Part shown: positions 1,671 to 56,860 of the stretch, in pieces | Layout: each line of letters begins with the position of its first letter | Position numbering within the stretch: position 1 is the stretch's first letter | NCBI GenBank assembly: GCA_009733575.1 | Contig: ML769399.1 | Coordinates: forward strand, 222,653-286,652 | DNA: 64,000 bases | Reading direction: 5' to 3' | Source of the DNA: Gymnopus androsaceus JB14 | Taxonomy: Eukaryota > Basidiomycota > Agaricomycetes > Agaricales > Omphalotaceae | Notes under the pieces: generated by a model | Database searches by the model: none | What the model saw: the letters and a program-made list of their open reading frames with translations, nothing else | What the model was told of the DNA's origin: nothing | Position numbers and translations under genes: made by a program

Positions 1671-4600
1671 ATGTCTTCTGCTCTCATCACAATGCTTCCC
1701 TCTCTCGGAAAGTCGTCGTTGAACCTGCCTGATCTTCTCGACTTTCATCTCGAGCATAACCCCAACTTTCCTGTTTATGTTTATGCCGAGCCCGGTTCTA
1801 ACAGAACCGCTGAAATCAGGATGCTCGAATACATTCGTGCTGCCCATCGTATCGGAAAGGCTGTTCGTGGCGACTCTCAGCTCGGCGATGTCATTGCAAT
1901 CGTCGCGAATCTAGATGCTATAGTATATTCTGCTTTAATCGTCGGTATCATGAAGGCCGGCTTAGTGGTGAGTTGATTCTGATATAGTCAGGATATACTA
2001 TATCCTGAGTATATCATTACTGCGGTACGGACACTGAAGCTAATTTTTCCTTACTTAGCCTTTCCCTATGTCCCCACGAAACTCGCCAACGGCCCTTTTG
2101 CATCTCATTCGCGAATCGTCCGCGCATAGAATAATTATGACACAAGCTACTCTGCAAGCCGTCGTCAATGGTCTCAAAGCTGAACTAGAAACGTTCGATC
2201 CTACTTATGCCCTAAGCTTCGAAGAAGCGCCTGCGCTACACGACGCCTATCCCTTCCTCGGGAAAGAAACAGCAGAGGATCCTTTTACACCCATCAGCGC
2301 AACGTTTTCACCCAACGATTTGGACAAAAGCATTTACCTACACTCATCAGGATCGACTGGACTCCCGAAGCCGATATTATACACTTACCAATTTATCAAG
2401 GATGCCACCGCGCTAAGTAAGTGATTCTATTTCCTTCACGAGTTATTTGCTCATGCCTCAAAGTGCAAATATCTAAATTGCGCAAAGCTATTTCTGAAAA
2501 CCCCATATATGGTGCTATAGGTCTTCCGACGTTCCATATGATGGGTTTCTTTTTCCAAGTACTCACACCTCTGTATGGGCTTATCACGACCGCAGTTCTT
2601 GGACCTACTGTGACAAGTCCAGACGCTGTACCAATCTTAGGAACAGCGGAGAATATTCTAGAGGCTGCCAAAGTCGTGAAACCCTTGGCCATGGTGACAG
2701 TCCCCACCTTTTTCCACATTTGGTCGCAGTCCGATGATGCTGTGGAATTCCTTCGAACTCTTCGCGCTTTGGTGCGTCCTTTTCGACTCATACTTTATCC
2801 ATACTCTTGACACCGTTTCGCATGTAGTCATACGCTGGAGGACCCCTTCCTCCCCGAATAGCTGAATCACTTATCTCCCGAGGAGTCATCGTTACATCTG
2901 GATACGGCGGGACAGAATTTGGCGCTGTTACTGAACTACGAATGGACACTGAGACATGGCAATATTTCGAGTTCAGGGAAGGGACCAATATTCGCTGGGT
3001 GGCTCAAGGGGATGGAACATACGAGGCTCAATTCTTGGTACGTCCATTGACTACGTATGAGTACGGATCTTTGACTTAACGTGCTGTCGATAGACCTCTG
3101 AGACTCACCATGTTGCTATCGAGAATCTCCCGGACATCCCTGGTTATTCAACTTCAGATTTGTTCGAGCCACATCCGACCATTCCCAATCTATGGAAAAT
3201 GTGAGCGCCGAACGGCTACAACTCTTTACGTTTCTCATCCCTTATAGTGTTGGTCGAATCGACGATGTGATTATCCACTCGAGCGGCGAAAAAACCTGTC
3301 CCGGCACCAATGGAGGGCATCATCTCAGCTAATCCCATGTACGAGTCGCTCCCTCCCGAATGCCTCTACTCACCCTGAAGCTTATTGTTCATAGCGTCAG
3401 CGGAGCGATCATGTTCGGAAGGCAGCGAGATCAGCCAGGAATTCTCCTTGAACCTTTACCGGCCTATCAAGTCGATGTAAACGATAGCGCACAAATCAGT
3501 AAATTCAGGAATCTGATCTGGTAAATAAGCTTGGTTTTATCGTGTCGATTGTACCTTGACCCGATTTCTGTCTCAAGGCCCGCGATCGAAGAAGCCAACA
3601 AGGTTGCACCTGCGTTTAGTAGAATCTTCAAAGAGATGATCCTTATTGTCGATCCCCAAAAACCTCTTCCTCGTGTGGGAAAAGGTACTGTGGCAAGGAA
3701 AGCCGCCCTGGCGCTGTATGATTCTGAAATTGACGATTTGTAAGTCAAATGTACGTTGCATAACTTGGTTCTAACGCTACCGTTCTTCATACAGGTATGA
3801 AACTATAGAATCAAACTCGGGAGGCGATTCGATTGAACCGCCTAAAAGCTGGGAAGTAGCGGACATCCAGCCCTGGCTTGTTGGTCAAATCTCGGACATT
3901 CTTTCAACAGAAGCTCCTGCTATCACTGCAGATCTATTCGAGAACGGGTTTGATAGGTATGTGTTTCCAGATGTTAAAATTGGCCAACTTAATAATAATG
4001 ATCACCCAAAGTCTCTCTGCGACAATCCTTCGTCTTCGTCTGGTCGGCGCTTTTCGGAAATCAGGTATCGCCTCCCTTGCATCCACAATTACTCAAGGCA
4101 TAGTCTACAGCTATCCTACGATCACAATGCTAGCAGACGTTCTTGAGAAGGTTGTCACCAATCCTGGTGAGGGCACCATTGCGTCAAAGAGTCACGAAGA
4201 ATCTATAGAAGAAATGATCTCCAAGTACTCACAGGGTTTAGATACTCCCCTTCCACACCCCATTCCAGTCGATCCGACACAGCAATACGTTTTGCTGACA
4301 GGGTCTACTGGGAACCTTGGAGCTCAGCTGCTCGAGACATTGCTATTGGATGACTCTGTAGCCCGTGTGTATACTCTCAATCGACCATCTACCAAAACAT
4401 CGATGCATGAGAGACACCTCGCTCGGTTCCAGGACAAGGCTCTCGATGTTTCCCTTTTGTTGTCGCCGAAATTAGTCTTTTTATCCGGAGAAACCTCACG
4501 CGAAGATCTCGGCCTCCCTGAGGATACTTTGAAGGAGGTGTGTACCATCTATGACTGCGTTGATCTTTTCTTCCTGACCAAGTCAATAGCTCCGTCTAAA

Positions 4601-5656
4601 CCTGACTATGGTAATTCACAGTGCTTGGAGACTAGATTTCAATATGTCACTTGCATCATTCGAATCGCATGTCAAAGGTTCCCGAGTATTAATCAATGTT
4701 GCTCGGTCTAGCCGCCATTCCTCCTCAGTCAGATTTTTGTTCACATCATCGATTGGATCGACTCAGTCGTGGGATTCCAAAACGCAAGGTCCATACCCTG
4801 AGCATGTTGTCATGGACGCAAAATACGCCGTTGGGGGAGGTTATGGGGAGAGTAAATATGTTACTGAACGGGTACGTGTGTTGATTAGGCTCATGAATCT
4901 CCCTGACCAATTTGTATGTACAGATACTGGCAAAGAGTGGACTCGAAGCGACATCATTCCGGATTGGTCAAGTTACAGGTGGAGCTCCAAATGGTGCTTG
5001 GGCAACGAGTGACTGGGTCCCAATCCTTGTCCGATCAAGTTTAAGCATTGGTGTGCTACCAGATGCCTTTGGGGTGCGTACATATATCTTTCTCCTTTAA
5101 ACTTACCGACGCTTACTGTCCTTCGTAGGTTGTCTCGTGGATACCAATGGATGCAGTATGCAACGCTTTGCTCGACGTCGGGTTCAGTCACGAGCCAGTG
5201 CCTATAGCTGTAAATATTGTGCATCCAAAGCCAGTATCCTGGACTTATGTTGTCCAGAACATTCGAGCCGCTCTCGTTGAGGAGAAGCATCTATCTTCCG
5301 ATTCCCTTCCGCTTGTACCCTACCATGATTGGGTCGACACAGTCGAAACGCATGCAAAAAATCCAACGGCGACGGACACACAAAATATCGTGAGTTTAAC
5401 GCTTTGTGGGGAATGTGGTATGCTTATGTTTGCTTTCTTTTAGCCTGCTGTGAAACTACTCGATTTCTTTCGGCTACAATCCAATGCAGATAATGCTATC
5501 AGGAAATCCGGAGCAACTACTTTTGAAAGCACGGGTTTAGCTCCATTAAAAACAGCGAATGTTCAGAGGTTGAGCGAAAGGATAAGGAACCTCAAGCCTC
5601 TTGATGATATGATTGTACGGAAATGGGTTAGATATTGGATAGATGCGGGTCTCTAA
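1671..5656 (+). pseudogene. adenylate-forming reductase (A-T-R), copy 1, frameshifted
   Basis: The gene is an NRPS-like carboxylic-acid reductase: adenylation domain, carrier (T) domain, then an NADPH-dependent reductase domain. It has 14 exons; first introns are 1968-2058, 2417-2463, 2772-2827, 3038-3093 and 3201-3247. Visible motifs: SSGSTGLPKP (A3), SGYGGTEFG (A5), GRIDDVIIHSSGEKT (A8), RVGKGTVARKA (A10 lysine), FDSLSAT (carrier serine, its codon split AG|T by an intron), GSTGNLG (NADPH loop) and GGGYGESKYV (catalytic Tyr/Lys). Relative to copies 2-4 there is one extra C at about 3295, directly after GEKT. It leads to a stop at 3330-3332, so only the first half of the A domain can be made. 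The downstream exons are still open, so the lesion is recent or a sequencing error. A family role in reducing an aryl or amino acid to an aldehyde is known; the substrate is not predictable here. Confidence 0.85.
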
Positions 5657-52902: not shown

Positions 52903-53074
52903 ATGTCGAGCTCTTCATCCGAACCTCTCGCTGCTGTTGGATCCGTTTCAAACGCACCTGAGAAGTTCGCTAATGTCTCCCAAACAGTAAAGGAATACTG
53001 TCCTCGAATTCGTGTCTTGGTTATGGGTAGAAGGAACGCAGGGAAGACAACTTTGCTCAAAAAAATGACCAATA

Positions 53075-53670
53075 CAGTGTTCTATGGTTCCTTGAGCCAC
53101 TATGGCTCCTTGAACCACCAACCGTAATTTTTTTTTGCAGGGTGTATTTACCTTAAAGTACTGTCACAAACTTAATGAACGTACATGATGCATTGTTGAG
53201 AAAATACTCAGAGTGTTAGCTCCCAATCTCAAGATGCAGGAAATCAAACATCAAGTATTTTGGAATATTTTTCATTCGAAAACATATATTTTCGTTTACT
53301 AGCTGAATACTGATACTCAGGGCCCTGACAAAAATGGTACATAAATACATAATCGCTATTTCCAGCATCTGAGATACTCAGCCTTGTGGAAGGAGGATGT
53401 CTGTTCCTTAAGTGAGCAACATAAGTATGACAGCACAATTTGATCTGCCAAATTTGGCGTGGTTCAAGGAGCCATAAACGTGAGAATCAACTAATTCTTT
53501 AGATATTTTTGCGGAACTCCCTACAGCAATGTTTTCCCTTTTTTGATTATCTAAAAACACTTGTTCTTTCTTTTAGCAAAATACTAGATACAAAGAATTT
53601 GCTACTTCTTGCAGAACAAAAAATCGCAAGGAAAATTCAAAGTTCTGGTTCAAGGAGCCATAGAACACTG
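53075..53670. mobile_element. 596-bp TIR element (MITE), TA target site
   Basis: The ends are inverted repeats of about 24 bp with two mismatches: CAGTGTTCTATGG(T/C)TCC at the left and its complement at the right. The dinucleotide TA lies on both sides (53073-53074 and 53671-53672). TA duplication and CAGTG ends point to the Tc1/mariner-pogo group. No transposase ORF is present, so it is non-autonomous. Removing the element with one TA rejoins KKMTN and SSDGKF in frame. A second, inner inverted pair (tatggctccttgaaccac, 53101-53118 and 53459-53476, exact) suggests a nested or internally duplicated structure. Confidence 0.9.
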
Positions 53671-54913
53671 TAGTTCAGATGGTAAATTCGTTCTTCGCAA
53701 TGAGAAGGGAGAGTTGGTACGTGTTCCCTTCCCGTATCTGCTATAATCTTCCTGGTGCTCACGCTCATCTACTAGGTCCGCGACACATTCTTTCAAGATA
53801 AGGATGGGAATTCGGTACTTTGTGTCTTCTATGGCTATTTCTTCCCTGAAGCTAACCTCTGTTTAGGTTAACCCTGATACAATTCTGGACCCTTCGGTAG
53901 AGGCAAGTATCATCAGCAGTGTCTGTACCATCTTTGAACCAACTGCAAATAGCGTGGTCAAGCTAAAATTGACTACGAGATCACCTACCCCAGGTATGAG
54001 TCAGAATGACTAAAACAGTATATACACTCTCATTGGATGTACACCTTTGCAGTGATAATGACTATGTGTTCCATGACTCAAAGGGAATGGAGGCTGGATC
54101 TAGTGATGAATTAGTTGTGTTAAGAGAATTTATTCAGCGGAAACGAAAGATGAAGGCGTTGAGCCAACGATTGCATGTAATTTGGTAAGTAAGTTTGCCA
54201 TTTTCAGAAACAATTGTTAATGTAAAACTCCAGGCTCTGTCTTCCAGTAGACAATGATCGTCCCTTGGGGCCACAAGAAATGGCTTTCTTGAATGAAGAT
54301 TGGATAGATGGAGGCATGTCTTCAATGTTTTCCAATTGTCAAGCAAAATCAATTGACATCTTGAATTCAGTACCTGTCATCGCCATCTTCACAAAATTTG
54401 AGTGGAGAGTCACCAAAGCTTATGGTCATTTACGAGATGAGAAAATGTTGATGGGACAAGCCAAAAAAGCAGCACGTTCAAAAGCCTTTGCAGATTTTGA
54501 TGAGATTCGACAGGAACGGTTTGCCAATGTACGCCACTCACCTGCTACTTGGGTGTATCTCCAAGGTATTCTGCATTCATACATCATTTATAACAAGAAC
54601 TAATCCTGAGCTGTCCAGATATGCACAAGCTGCATGGAAGTTGTGATGAGCTTACTTTCAAAACCCGAGTCACAGTGGAAAAGGATGTCAATCCATACCT
54701 TTTCCACAAAATCAAAGACAACAGGATCAACATTCAAATGTCTATTGCTCTTCTTTAGTCAGTAATCTTCTTACCTGCTTGATGTTTTTCTTGACAAGAA
54801 AACTCCCAAATAGTGTCATTACTTTGTCAAAGGTCAAAAAGGATTTTGCAATCGGACCTGATAGTCAATTAAAAGAATGGACTGTTTTCTTACTTTCTCT
54901 TTTTCCATACTGG

Positions 54914-55975
54914 GTAAGCTGTTTATTTCATCTCCTGATTTTCACTACTTGTTAACATCAGCCATATATCCTTAGGATGTAAGTCAGATGAATACTCAAA
55001 TATTTTTGGCCCTCTTCTAATCCTCTACACAGCATGTGAGCTTAATCACTAGCAGCAACTTAAATTACTCATTTTATTCTTGGTTGGCTGCAGTATCTTG
55101 TGAGTTCCCTTTGACATCATTTCAATCTTTGTTAACAACTGTTTTTCTGCTCACTTGTTATGATCAGAATGTAAGTGATCTTATTTCCTCTCACCTCAAT
55201 TAAACTAGCTATTGAGACAAGAACTTATCCCCAGGTGGTGAGTATTGCTGCTCTACCTGGAAAGATTGTGTTTGGGAATTTATACATGCGCGGTATTTCC
55301 TACTCAGCAAGTAAGTTTCAAAAATCTTTGGATTACCATTGATTCTAACTCAAGCTTTTTAGCATGTGAGCATTTTGGGATTCTTAAAAAATATTTACAT
55401 TGTACTAAGTTGACTCCTACCATCAGCAAGTATGATTGACCTACCTGCACTTCAATTTCCTTTACTGAAACCACCCAACTGAAGTGGGTACGCCTATCAC
55501 TTCTGACAAGGTTATGCTGGTAATCCAACGCGGCTCTTCTATTCTATACACAGAATGTAAGTGTGGTATTGCTACTGTCCCATCAATACTGACCCGACTG
55601 TGCAGTGGGTAAGTCCATTTTACGCTGCACAGATGCTCGAGCCTCAAATCATCATTTTAGAATGTAAGTTGTTTGAGATTTAGGAAATTCGGCTCATACC
55701 TATACTTTTGGCATACAGTTTGATGAAAAGCAGTTTAAACTGGTGCGTAACTCCGACTCAAGCTTTCCGCTTCTCGATATAACTGTAATTTAGGCCGTAC
55801 GTGCGTTCCTATATTTACTACATAACAATGCTGAGATTTCTGGATTCCGTCCTTTCCTCAAAGATAGTAAGTCTCTCGGTGGTTTGGTTTCATCTTGTGA
55901 GAAATTGACATACGTTATGTAGAAGGTTTGCTCAAGTGGCATATAACCGAACTGCCAGCTTCAGCTACTTTCTAG
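54914..55975 (+). other. micro-exon ladder: 17 consecutive introns with mostly 3-nt exons
   Basis: Introns: 54914-54975, 54979-55032, 55036-55093, 55100-55167, 55171-55234, 55238-55307, 55311-55362, 55366-55426, 55430-55484, 55488-55553, 55557-55605, 55609-55660, 55664-55718, 55743-55793, 55797-55863, 55867-55922 and 55926-55975. Each is 49-70 nt, starts GTRAGN or a close variant and ends YAG in nearly every case. Exons between them are GAT, CAT, TATCTT, AAT, GTG, CAA, CAT, CAA, TGG, AAT, TGG, AAT, a 24-nt exon (FDEKQFKL), GCC, ATA and AAG. All junctions are phase 0, and the frame enters from ...LFPYW and leaves into VGSDIK. Reading the whole stretch as one 1,062-nt intron would also keep frame, so transcript data are needed. 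Confidence 0.65.
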
Positions 55976-56860
55976 GTTGGCAGCGACATAAAGGCAGTGG
56001 ATGCAATCATGGGAGCGTGCCTGTCTTGGGTGAATTCATTTTCTCCGAGTTCCAGATTCCAAGCATACACTGACCCATCATCCTTTAGTTGGATAAAGGC
56101 GACAAAAAGGATTTGCAATTGCTCAATTTCTTTGTCGGTTAGTATTTTGGTGTCAATAGCCTCGTGTGTTTTTCACTGTAATCTCTGCCACCCAGACGTC
56201 CTCATAATTGCAGAAAACTCATTCTGGGTCCAGGACCGAAAACCCTGGAATCATGTCAACGACGTTATTTCACAATACAGAAACTGTCCACAGCGGGCGT
56301 CGGTTAGATCAACGGTGTTGAAGTTGCAGAAGGAGATGAATGCTCCGCGGTATCAACATGGAGCCCTTGTATGGCAAGGACCTCTACAGAGCCCAAGTTT
56401 GACAGCGCTCGCAGTCTATTTTGCACCCTTGTTGTCGGAGCATCGCTTCCTCTCTGTTTTACTATGTATGTTTGCCTTGGATTTTGACAAAGCAAGAAAA
56501 CTACTAATGTCGAATTTCGATAGGACATATGCGCTAGAATTCATTCGTATTTTTTCAACATGTATTTGTGTAGCCTACTTTGTATCAATGATTCAATTCT
56601 CGAACCATATCTATTCAACGTGTATTTTTCAACCTTTCAACTATATGAACTCATGTACTGCTAAGTACTAGGCTAAGCCCCGAACAAGCTAACAAGAATA
56701 TTAAATCACCGTATTGCTATCTATAGGCAAGTCAAAGCTGGGAATCGTGACTAAAATTACAAAAAAAATACATTTCGACAGATTGGACTAATATGAAGAT
56801 ACAAAGAAAACTACATACATGGAACAATACATTCGTATCATGTTCGTGAAAGAATCACCC

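Follow-up and report, generated by a model that had tools for sequence, protein, structure and literature searches.

Results

A GTPase gene interrupted by a ladder of one-codon exons

We analysed a 64,000-nt stretch of the genome of Gymnopus androsaceus JB14, hereafter the window. It carries an Agaricales 'G domain' gene in which a ladder of short introns and one-codon exons lies between the GTPase part and a C-terminal domain. The features of the gene are listed below.

52903..53072, + strand: first coding exon of the GTPase gene, MSSSSSEP... GRRNAGKTTLLKKMTN, with the P-loop, up to the inserted element; start codon placed by eye
53073..53672, no strand assigned: insertion within the P-loop exon, a 600-bp element that has inverted repeats of 27 nt and TA at each end
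53680..54739, + strand: GTPase-domain exons, seven pieces, with introns of 49-59 nt
54799..54913, + strand: last ordinary exon upstream of the ladder, ending ...KEWTVFLLSLFPYW; 24 residues 71% identical to P0014
54914..55718, + strand: ladder proper, 13 introns and 12 micro-exons, D H YL N V Q H Q W N W N
54976..54978, + strand: micro-exon GAT (D)
55033..55035, + strand: micro-exon CAT (H)
55094..55099, + strand: micro-exon TATCTT (YL)
55168..55170, + strand: micro-exon AAT (N)
55235..55237, + strand: micro-exon GTG (V)
55308..55310, + strand: micro-exon CAA (Q)
55363..55365, + strand: micro-exon CAT (H)
55427..55429, + strand: micro-exon CAA (Q)
55485..55487, + strand: micro-exon TGG (W)
55554..55556, + strand: micro-exon AAT (N)
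55606..55608, + strand: micro-exon TGG (W)
55661..55663, + strand: micro-exon AAT (N)
55719..55742, + strand: 24-nt exon FDEKQFKL; counterpart FAEKEFKL in the Collybiopsis confluens model P0014
55743..55975, + strand: uncertain ladder end, either GCC at 55794, ATA at 55864 and AAG at 55923 or a larger exon from 55794
55976..56465, + strand: ordinary C-terminal-domain exons (VGSDIKAVDAIMGACLSW ... DVLIIAENSFWVQDRKPWNH ...), putative 3' end

The P-loop of the window gene is GRRNAGKTTLLKK, and the C-terminal domain directly 3' of the ladder reads VDVLIIAENSFW...KPWNH. Eighteen related proteins, annotated as 'G domain-containing' or hypothetical, were found in Rhodocollybia, Collybiopsis, Marasmius and others. 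P0001 scored above the Pfam MMR_HSR1 cut-off (25.3 against 21.9), and P0019, P0002 and P0012 fell just under it. The motif G..NAGKTT, which agrees with the P-loop GTPase pattern GxxxxGKT, was invariant across a five-row alignment. WD40 and NACHT domains were not detected by Pfam at E values up to 1 in the window pieces, P0019, P0001, P0002 or P0012. Foldseek was used to look for a GTPase-plus-helical fold like that of dynamin-like or immunity-related GTPases: in the 50 matches listed, BDLP (rank 1), IniA and IIGP1 appeared among many G-alpha chains, with TM scores by query of at most 0.31, and model confidence of the C-terminal part was mostly below 50. The GTPase part was joined to the last pre-ladder exon by eye at a weak donor, GTCTAT at 54740, a first guess having produced a stop at the joint.

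The inverted repeats of the element at 53073-53672 are 93% complementary. By eye, its flanks are in frame (MTN-SSDGKF, where relatives have MTQSSDGKV), so the insertion is probably young; it may disable the window copy. About 27 kb downstream (L009 ~3930-4650, corresponding to C17 ~304930-305650) lies a partial and broken copy of the gene's 3' region, in which donors of the last ladder introns are altered. Upstream of this broken copy, a candidate tyrosine-recombinase retroelement was seen by eye.

The ladder exceeds chance and ends ambiguously

A program recount of the window letters from 54914 to 55975 recovered exactly what the sequence-only reading had described: 17 introns, each 49-70 nt long, with 16 exons between them. 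Of these exons, 14 measure 3 nt, and the other two measure 6 nt and 24 nt. All 17 donors are GT and all 17 acceptors AG, the weakest donor being the last (GTTTGC). Every intron is in phase 0 and every exon a multiple of 3, and the frame continues from ...SLFPYW into VGSDIKAVDAIM. Both strands of the 64-kb window, and shuffles of it, were scanned with a chain finder whose rules for donors and acceptors were fixed. On the + strand it found nine consecutive 3-nt exons, or 16 exons when lengths of 3k up to 24 were accepted, against a chain of 1 for 3-nt exons on the - strand and chains of 1 or 2 in 20 Markov shuffles of the 64 kb. With control exon lengths of 1, 2, 4, 5, 6 and 7, the chain was 1 on the + strand and 1-2 on the - strand. 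These results confirm that the window ladder is real and extends beyond a chance run.

The solid part of the ladder comprises the 12 micro-exons at 54976-55663 and the 24-nt exon. The final three one-codon exons (GCC, ATA and AAG) are uncertain, and other in-frame chains at the 3' end, such as FKL-I-VGSD, fit homologs equally well or better. In addition, an open stretch at 55794-55871, AVRAFLYLLHNNAEISGFRPFLKDS, covers part of the fifteenth intron of the sequence-only reading and runs beyond it, and this stretch may be an exon instead. An exon starting at 55794 would include ISGFRPFLKDSKS, matching IEGWTPFLKLSES of P0001 at 8 of 13 residues, and has no obvious donor for an in-frame join to the next exon.

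GTAAGT or GTGAGT donors occur in nine of the 17 window ladder introns, against one of the seven ordinary introns listed for the window gene, and in 407 of 489 introns of the family arrays, where the donor-choice scoring favours such donors. Strong intronic donors would fit the need at sites where the exon side cannot pair. A common origin of the window introns with each other was considered and rejected, as their mean local score lay inside the shuffle range; their scores against the C72 and C425 intron consensus were of the same size as among themselves. The window copy is best seen as an old, diverged family member whose introns are no longer alike, and its descent from tandem duplication would follow from the paralogs.

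Ladders recur across the gene family

In the 83-Mb genome, 40 exon-level GTPase matches were found. Besides the window copy, 14 paralogs (C425, C824, C297, C171, C43, C9, C111, C161, C331, C72, C137, C514, C497 and C200) carry a ladder on the same strand downstream of the GTPase part, making 15 ladder-bearing family loci with the window and 16 arrays with one further array on C82. The latter (C82:184300-193000; L045, L046, L074 and L075) comprises several dozen units, in which D, F, W and Y codons are frequent, and tblastn found no GTPase in the 8.7 kb joined there. Within about 1.5 kb of flank at each of 12 further GTPase loci, chains did not exceed 1; one of these loci, C514:9254, has an N gap near the expected ladder place. 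The locus-by-locus scan left out five further GTPase loci.

When the whole genome was searched for a CAG-acceptor pattern of two one-codon exons in succession, 59 matches were obtained, of which 50 fell in C425, three in the window, two in C82 and four in simple repeats, against six matches for the reversed control. A longer-spaced version of the pattern added C297 and simple repeats. Introner elements are near-identical introns dispersed through many unrelated genes; the similar introns described here stand in tandem inside genes of one family, and the genome searches returned known ladders and simple repeats only, within the CAG form of the pattern; most arrays would need the TAG form.

Eight ladder GTPase genes, those on C72, C161, C331, C137, C9, C514, C497 and C200 (loci L021, L024-L027, L029, L031 and L032), lie head to head with a second GTPase paralog within about 1.5 kb, a layout reminiscent of paired immune receptors. 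For the partners on C514, C497 and C9 (L038, L039 and L040), no ladder was found in about 1.5 kb downstream.

Splice sites are constrained and codons hypervariable in paralog arrays

In the paralog ladders, introns that range from similar to identical are arrayed in tandem, and a single codon, usually NNT, comes after each. These arrays contain up to about 55 units, and the longest runs are 54 (C425) and 44 (C514). The median intron measures 61 nt in C425, 67 nt in C514, C497 and C200, 68 nt in C82, 73 nt in C72, C161, C331 and C137, and 72-76 nt in C824, C171, C43, C111, C9 and C297. In the 16 arrays, 478 of 535 micro-exons are 3 nt long, a count that includes a few spurious longer exons chained ahead of the ladders in C200, C497 and C425; the two TAA codons, in C200 and C497, lie in that part of the chains. 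The third base is T in 423 of the 478 one-codon exons. A codon of the form NNT is never a stop, and such codons cover 15 amino acids. When only the 3-nt exons of the longest run per array were counted, none of 442 was a stop and 44 were NNR; by our own arithmetic, zero stops would have about a 1% chance if the NNR codons were random. In C72, 28 units of equal length show no variation at any of 73 intron sites and carry the codons GAT, TAT and ACT.

For a test of constraint, units were located in 15 arrays from the intron interior alone, with splice signals unused. The interior departed from the array consensus at 1497 of 22,308 sites (6.7%). Only units with at most one mismatch across the 6 nt adjoining a site were kept, and in these the donor G and T were off consensus in 5 and 6 of 395 (1.3 and 1.5%) and the acceptor A and G in 5 and 4 of 389 (1.3 and 1.0%), against 212, 176 and 39 of 395 (54, 45 and 10%) for codon positions 1, 2 and 3. 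A fixed-offset test on 453 copies found GT at the exact offset in 409 and AG in 404, with pi of 0.152 for GT and 0.177 for AG against 0.119 for the interior; splice sites thus seemed no better kept, in a test that was spoiled by indels next to the splice sites.

Sites were then ranked by variability after units with an intron more than 8 nt off the median had been dropped. No intron site was more variable than codon position 1 in any of the 15 arrays, and at most one per array was more variable than position 2; position 3 was invariant in seven of the 15 and raised in C514, C497, C200 and C82. Among unit pairs with identical introns, filtered in the same way, the codon differed in 519 of 899 (C72, 197/378; C425, 252/410; C497, 32/51; C137, 24/42; C171, 13/16; C200, 1/1; C824, 0/1). 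Since array units share ancestry, P values are rough. Furthermore, paralog pairs were compared whose upstream 1.2-1.4 kb are 89-96% identical. In 12 pairs, ladder differences amounted to 40-75% at position 1, 0-75% at position 2 (0-10% only in three C514/C497/C200 pairs), 0-27% at position 3 and 3-17% in introns. The GTPase part gave a pN/pS of 0.34-0.82 in all 15 pairs, indicating ordinary, if relaxed, constraint outside the ladder.

Exons of 2 or 4 nt, which break the frame, are rare, and all end in T. Read straight through with these exons, C72 and C425 meet stop codons; some ladder copies may be dead, or these exons may be skipped. Within C425, codon blocks such as LLLDD are repeated, as judged by eye. 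Our data show the ladder architecture and that it recurs through the family, with constrained splice sites and hypervariable codons.

Two homologs carry residues at the ladder position

P0001, an uninterrupted 372-aa open reading frame on a 1435-nt contig, has in-frame residues at the ladder place and reads SLFPYWNNFFHMERHYEVHWDWIEGWTPFLKLSESDQEIV...VVSW where the window gene reads SLFPYW-DHYLNVQHQWNWN-FDEKQFKL...CLSW. The alignment score was reached by random triplets of the same 1062 nt in 0.135% of 20,000 draws, by random ladder residues in 0.7%, and by permutations of the window's own ladder residues in 12.9%. P0019, a 458-aa protein on a 1727-nt contig that is 63% identical to the C425 paralog, has an in-frame stretch rich in Y, H, E, L and R at the ladder position. 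Because genes of this family are intron-rich and the frames of P0001 and P0019 are uninterrupted over such lengths, both probably represent spliced RNA, that is, cDNA, and their segments may come from ladders. In protein searches with C-terminal regions, only P0019 was recovered. In this alignment, a check that the sequence-only reading had called for, length and composition of the window ladder find support, and the order of its residues does not reach significance. That the micro-exons are real is supported by the contiguous in-frame segment of P0001 and the conserved splice sites of the paralogs, except that the last three of the window are doubtful.

Gene models of relatives differ at this place. 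In the Collybiopsis confluens model P0014 (LFPYW-FAEKEFKL), FPYW is fused directly to the counterpart of the 24-nt exon, and P0012 has unrelated residues at the ladder place before its C-terminal domain resumes. Other NCBI models of relatives end before the ladder place or diverge there. Such truncated or skipping models would be expected if gene callers had passed over one-codon exons.

Discussion

We consider it likely, at a probability of roughly 0.8, that this GTPase family owes a diversifying segment to a one-residue-per-intron array, which has grown through tandem duplication. The array would be protein-coding, with one codon after each spliceosomal intron, and would specify about 15-55 residues. 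For Gymnopus androsaceus JB14, the ladder codons are predicted to be spliced together and translated. Introns of about 50-76 nt, mostly with strong GTAAGT or GTGAGT donors, would be removed one by one. Since no more than 3 nt lie between neighbours, removal most likely follows an order and is not simultaneous. The homogeneous arrays and repeated codon blocks suggest that array length changes by tandem duplication of the intron-plus-codon unit, in steps of one residue or one block with the frame intact, and that recombination keeps the introns alike. Serial intron gain at codon boundaries, one of the options in the sequence-only reading, finds support, and in a more specific form, since in the paralogs the intron-plus-codon unit is duplicated head to tail. 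The first two codon bases change far faster than the introns, most likely through diversifying selection on amino acids; the third base is usually T, and in an NNT codon such changes never create a stop. A bolder proposal, to which we give only limited credence, is a dedicated diversity-generating architecture, built of tandem intron-plus-codon arrays, in which a targeted process preferentially changes the two leading bases of the one-codon NNT exons and produces a stop-free, frame-safe hypervariable recognition segment, the GTPase family possibly acting in putative non-self recognition.

Such a targeted process at two codon bases is the main rival to diversifying selection. A mutational or joining process at the exon site, on the two bases that lie between AG and T-GTAAGT, with new units receiving a random filler of 1-3 nt at each junction, would explain why the third base is T in most one-codon exons and invariably so in seven arrays, although T to C is silent, why every 2- or 4-nt exon has T as its last base, the pattern that variable-length filler would leave, and why codons vary in C72 next to invariant introns. 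Even so, we think it rather unlikely: the codon blocks repeated in C425 imply that codons are inherited through duplications, in most arrays position 3 changes about as fast as the introns do, which is what selection on amino acids would predict for a site where most changes are silent, and we know of no enzyme or template for targeted codon change. Still less probable is the reading of the arrays as minisatellites in one long intron, with incidental GT and AG and untranslated codons. Tandem repeats they certainly are, and the NCBI models that stop before, diverge at or skip the ladder place would suit this reading; against it, in mismatch-filtered units that were found without them, GT and AG surpass the interior in conservation about fivefold, the hypervariable sites are the two bases between AG and T-GT, the arrays keep to the coding strand and the same gene position in 15 GTPase loci, and P0001 and P0019 retain residues there.

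A recursive, or ratchet, track that removes a single 1-kb intron stepwise and adds no residues had also been put forward in the sequence-only reading, and the regular succession of acceptor and donor sites does recall one. Recursive sites regenerate a donor directly at AG|GT. In the window ladder 3 nt intervene, AG|GT occurs at just one of the 16 exon starts (GTG at 55235), and the homologs P0001 and P0019 keep residues at this place, which makes ratchet splicing very improbable. Skipping of micro-exons, a further option of that reading, may yield protein variants. For the window gene itself, by contrast, we see an even chance that it is a decaying pseudogene with an unused relic of a ladder. 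The insertion in its P-loop exon, the uncertain 3' end of the ladder and the second, clearly broken copy downstream point that way; on the other side, frames are open and splice sites canonical over most of the remaining gene. Decay of this one copy would be compatible with the family-wide explanation and would leave the family-wide feature untouched.

In its working, the proposed diversifying array most resembles the HNWD family of Podospora anserina, the NLR-WD40 proteins that include het-d and het-e. HNWD repeats undergo concerted evolution, with diversification at four codon positions in each (PMC1805685, PMC2873952). Both systems consist of near-identical tandem repeats in a multigene NTPase family, and array length shifts by rearrangement in HNWD and probably in the ladders. 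Diversifying selection acts on a few codon positions of the HNWD repeat against a homogenised background, and the ladders likewise keep their repeats alike and show excess change at specific codons. The HNWD repeat, as presented there, is a translated WD40 unit, whereas the ladder repeat is an intron plus one codon and would be almost entirely spliced out; the HNWD domains are WD40 and NACHT rather than a GTPase, and the ladder family is not a member.

Schistosome micro-exon genes contain runs of short exons in multiples of 3, and short symmetric exons of such lengths are common to both systems. The ladder differs from them in its one-codon exons and its short, often near-identical introns, and it forms one segment of an otherwise ordinary gene: micro-exons encode 24 of the 492 residues in the window gene model rather than most of the coding sequence. 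TAL effector repeats are near-identical with two variable positions, and diversity-generating retroelements randomise codons in a stop-free manner; the ladder differs from both in that its unit is an intron, with no known template repeat or reverse transcriptase. Isolated 3-nt exons are on record: the fungal gene lipS of Dactylellina haptotyla has two (PMC5639578) and homothorax of Drosophila has one (PMC7392893); in the portions of these accounts consulted, they stand singly or in twos rather than in an array, with no mention of hypervariation. Tiny exons and frequent introns of 45-55 bp are described for P450 genes of the basidiomycete Phanerochaete, where, in the part of the source seen, the shortest exon is 6 bp, the exons are spread over the gene set and no tandem array is mentioned (PMC1184071). 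Among the open-access papers that the literature searches listed, none described an array of one-codon exons that builds a protein segment at one amino acid per intron.

The ladder raises the question of how a spliceosome copes with dozens of introns spaced by a mere 3 nt, and such structures seem to escape gene callers. As each repeat couples a homogenised, spliced-out carrier to a hypervariable codon, intron drift could serve as a yardstick for selection on single residues. If confirmed, the one-residue-per-intron array would be a new route for protein diversification in eukaryotes.
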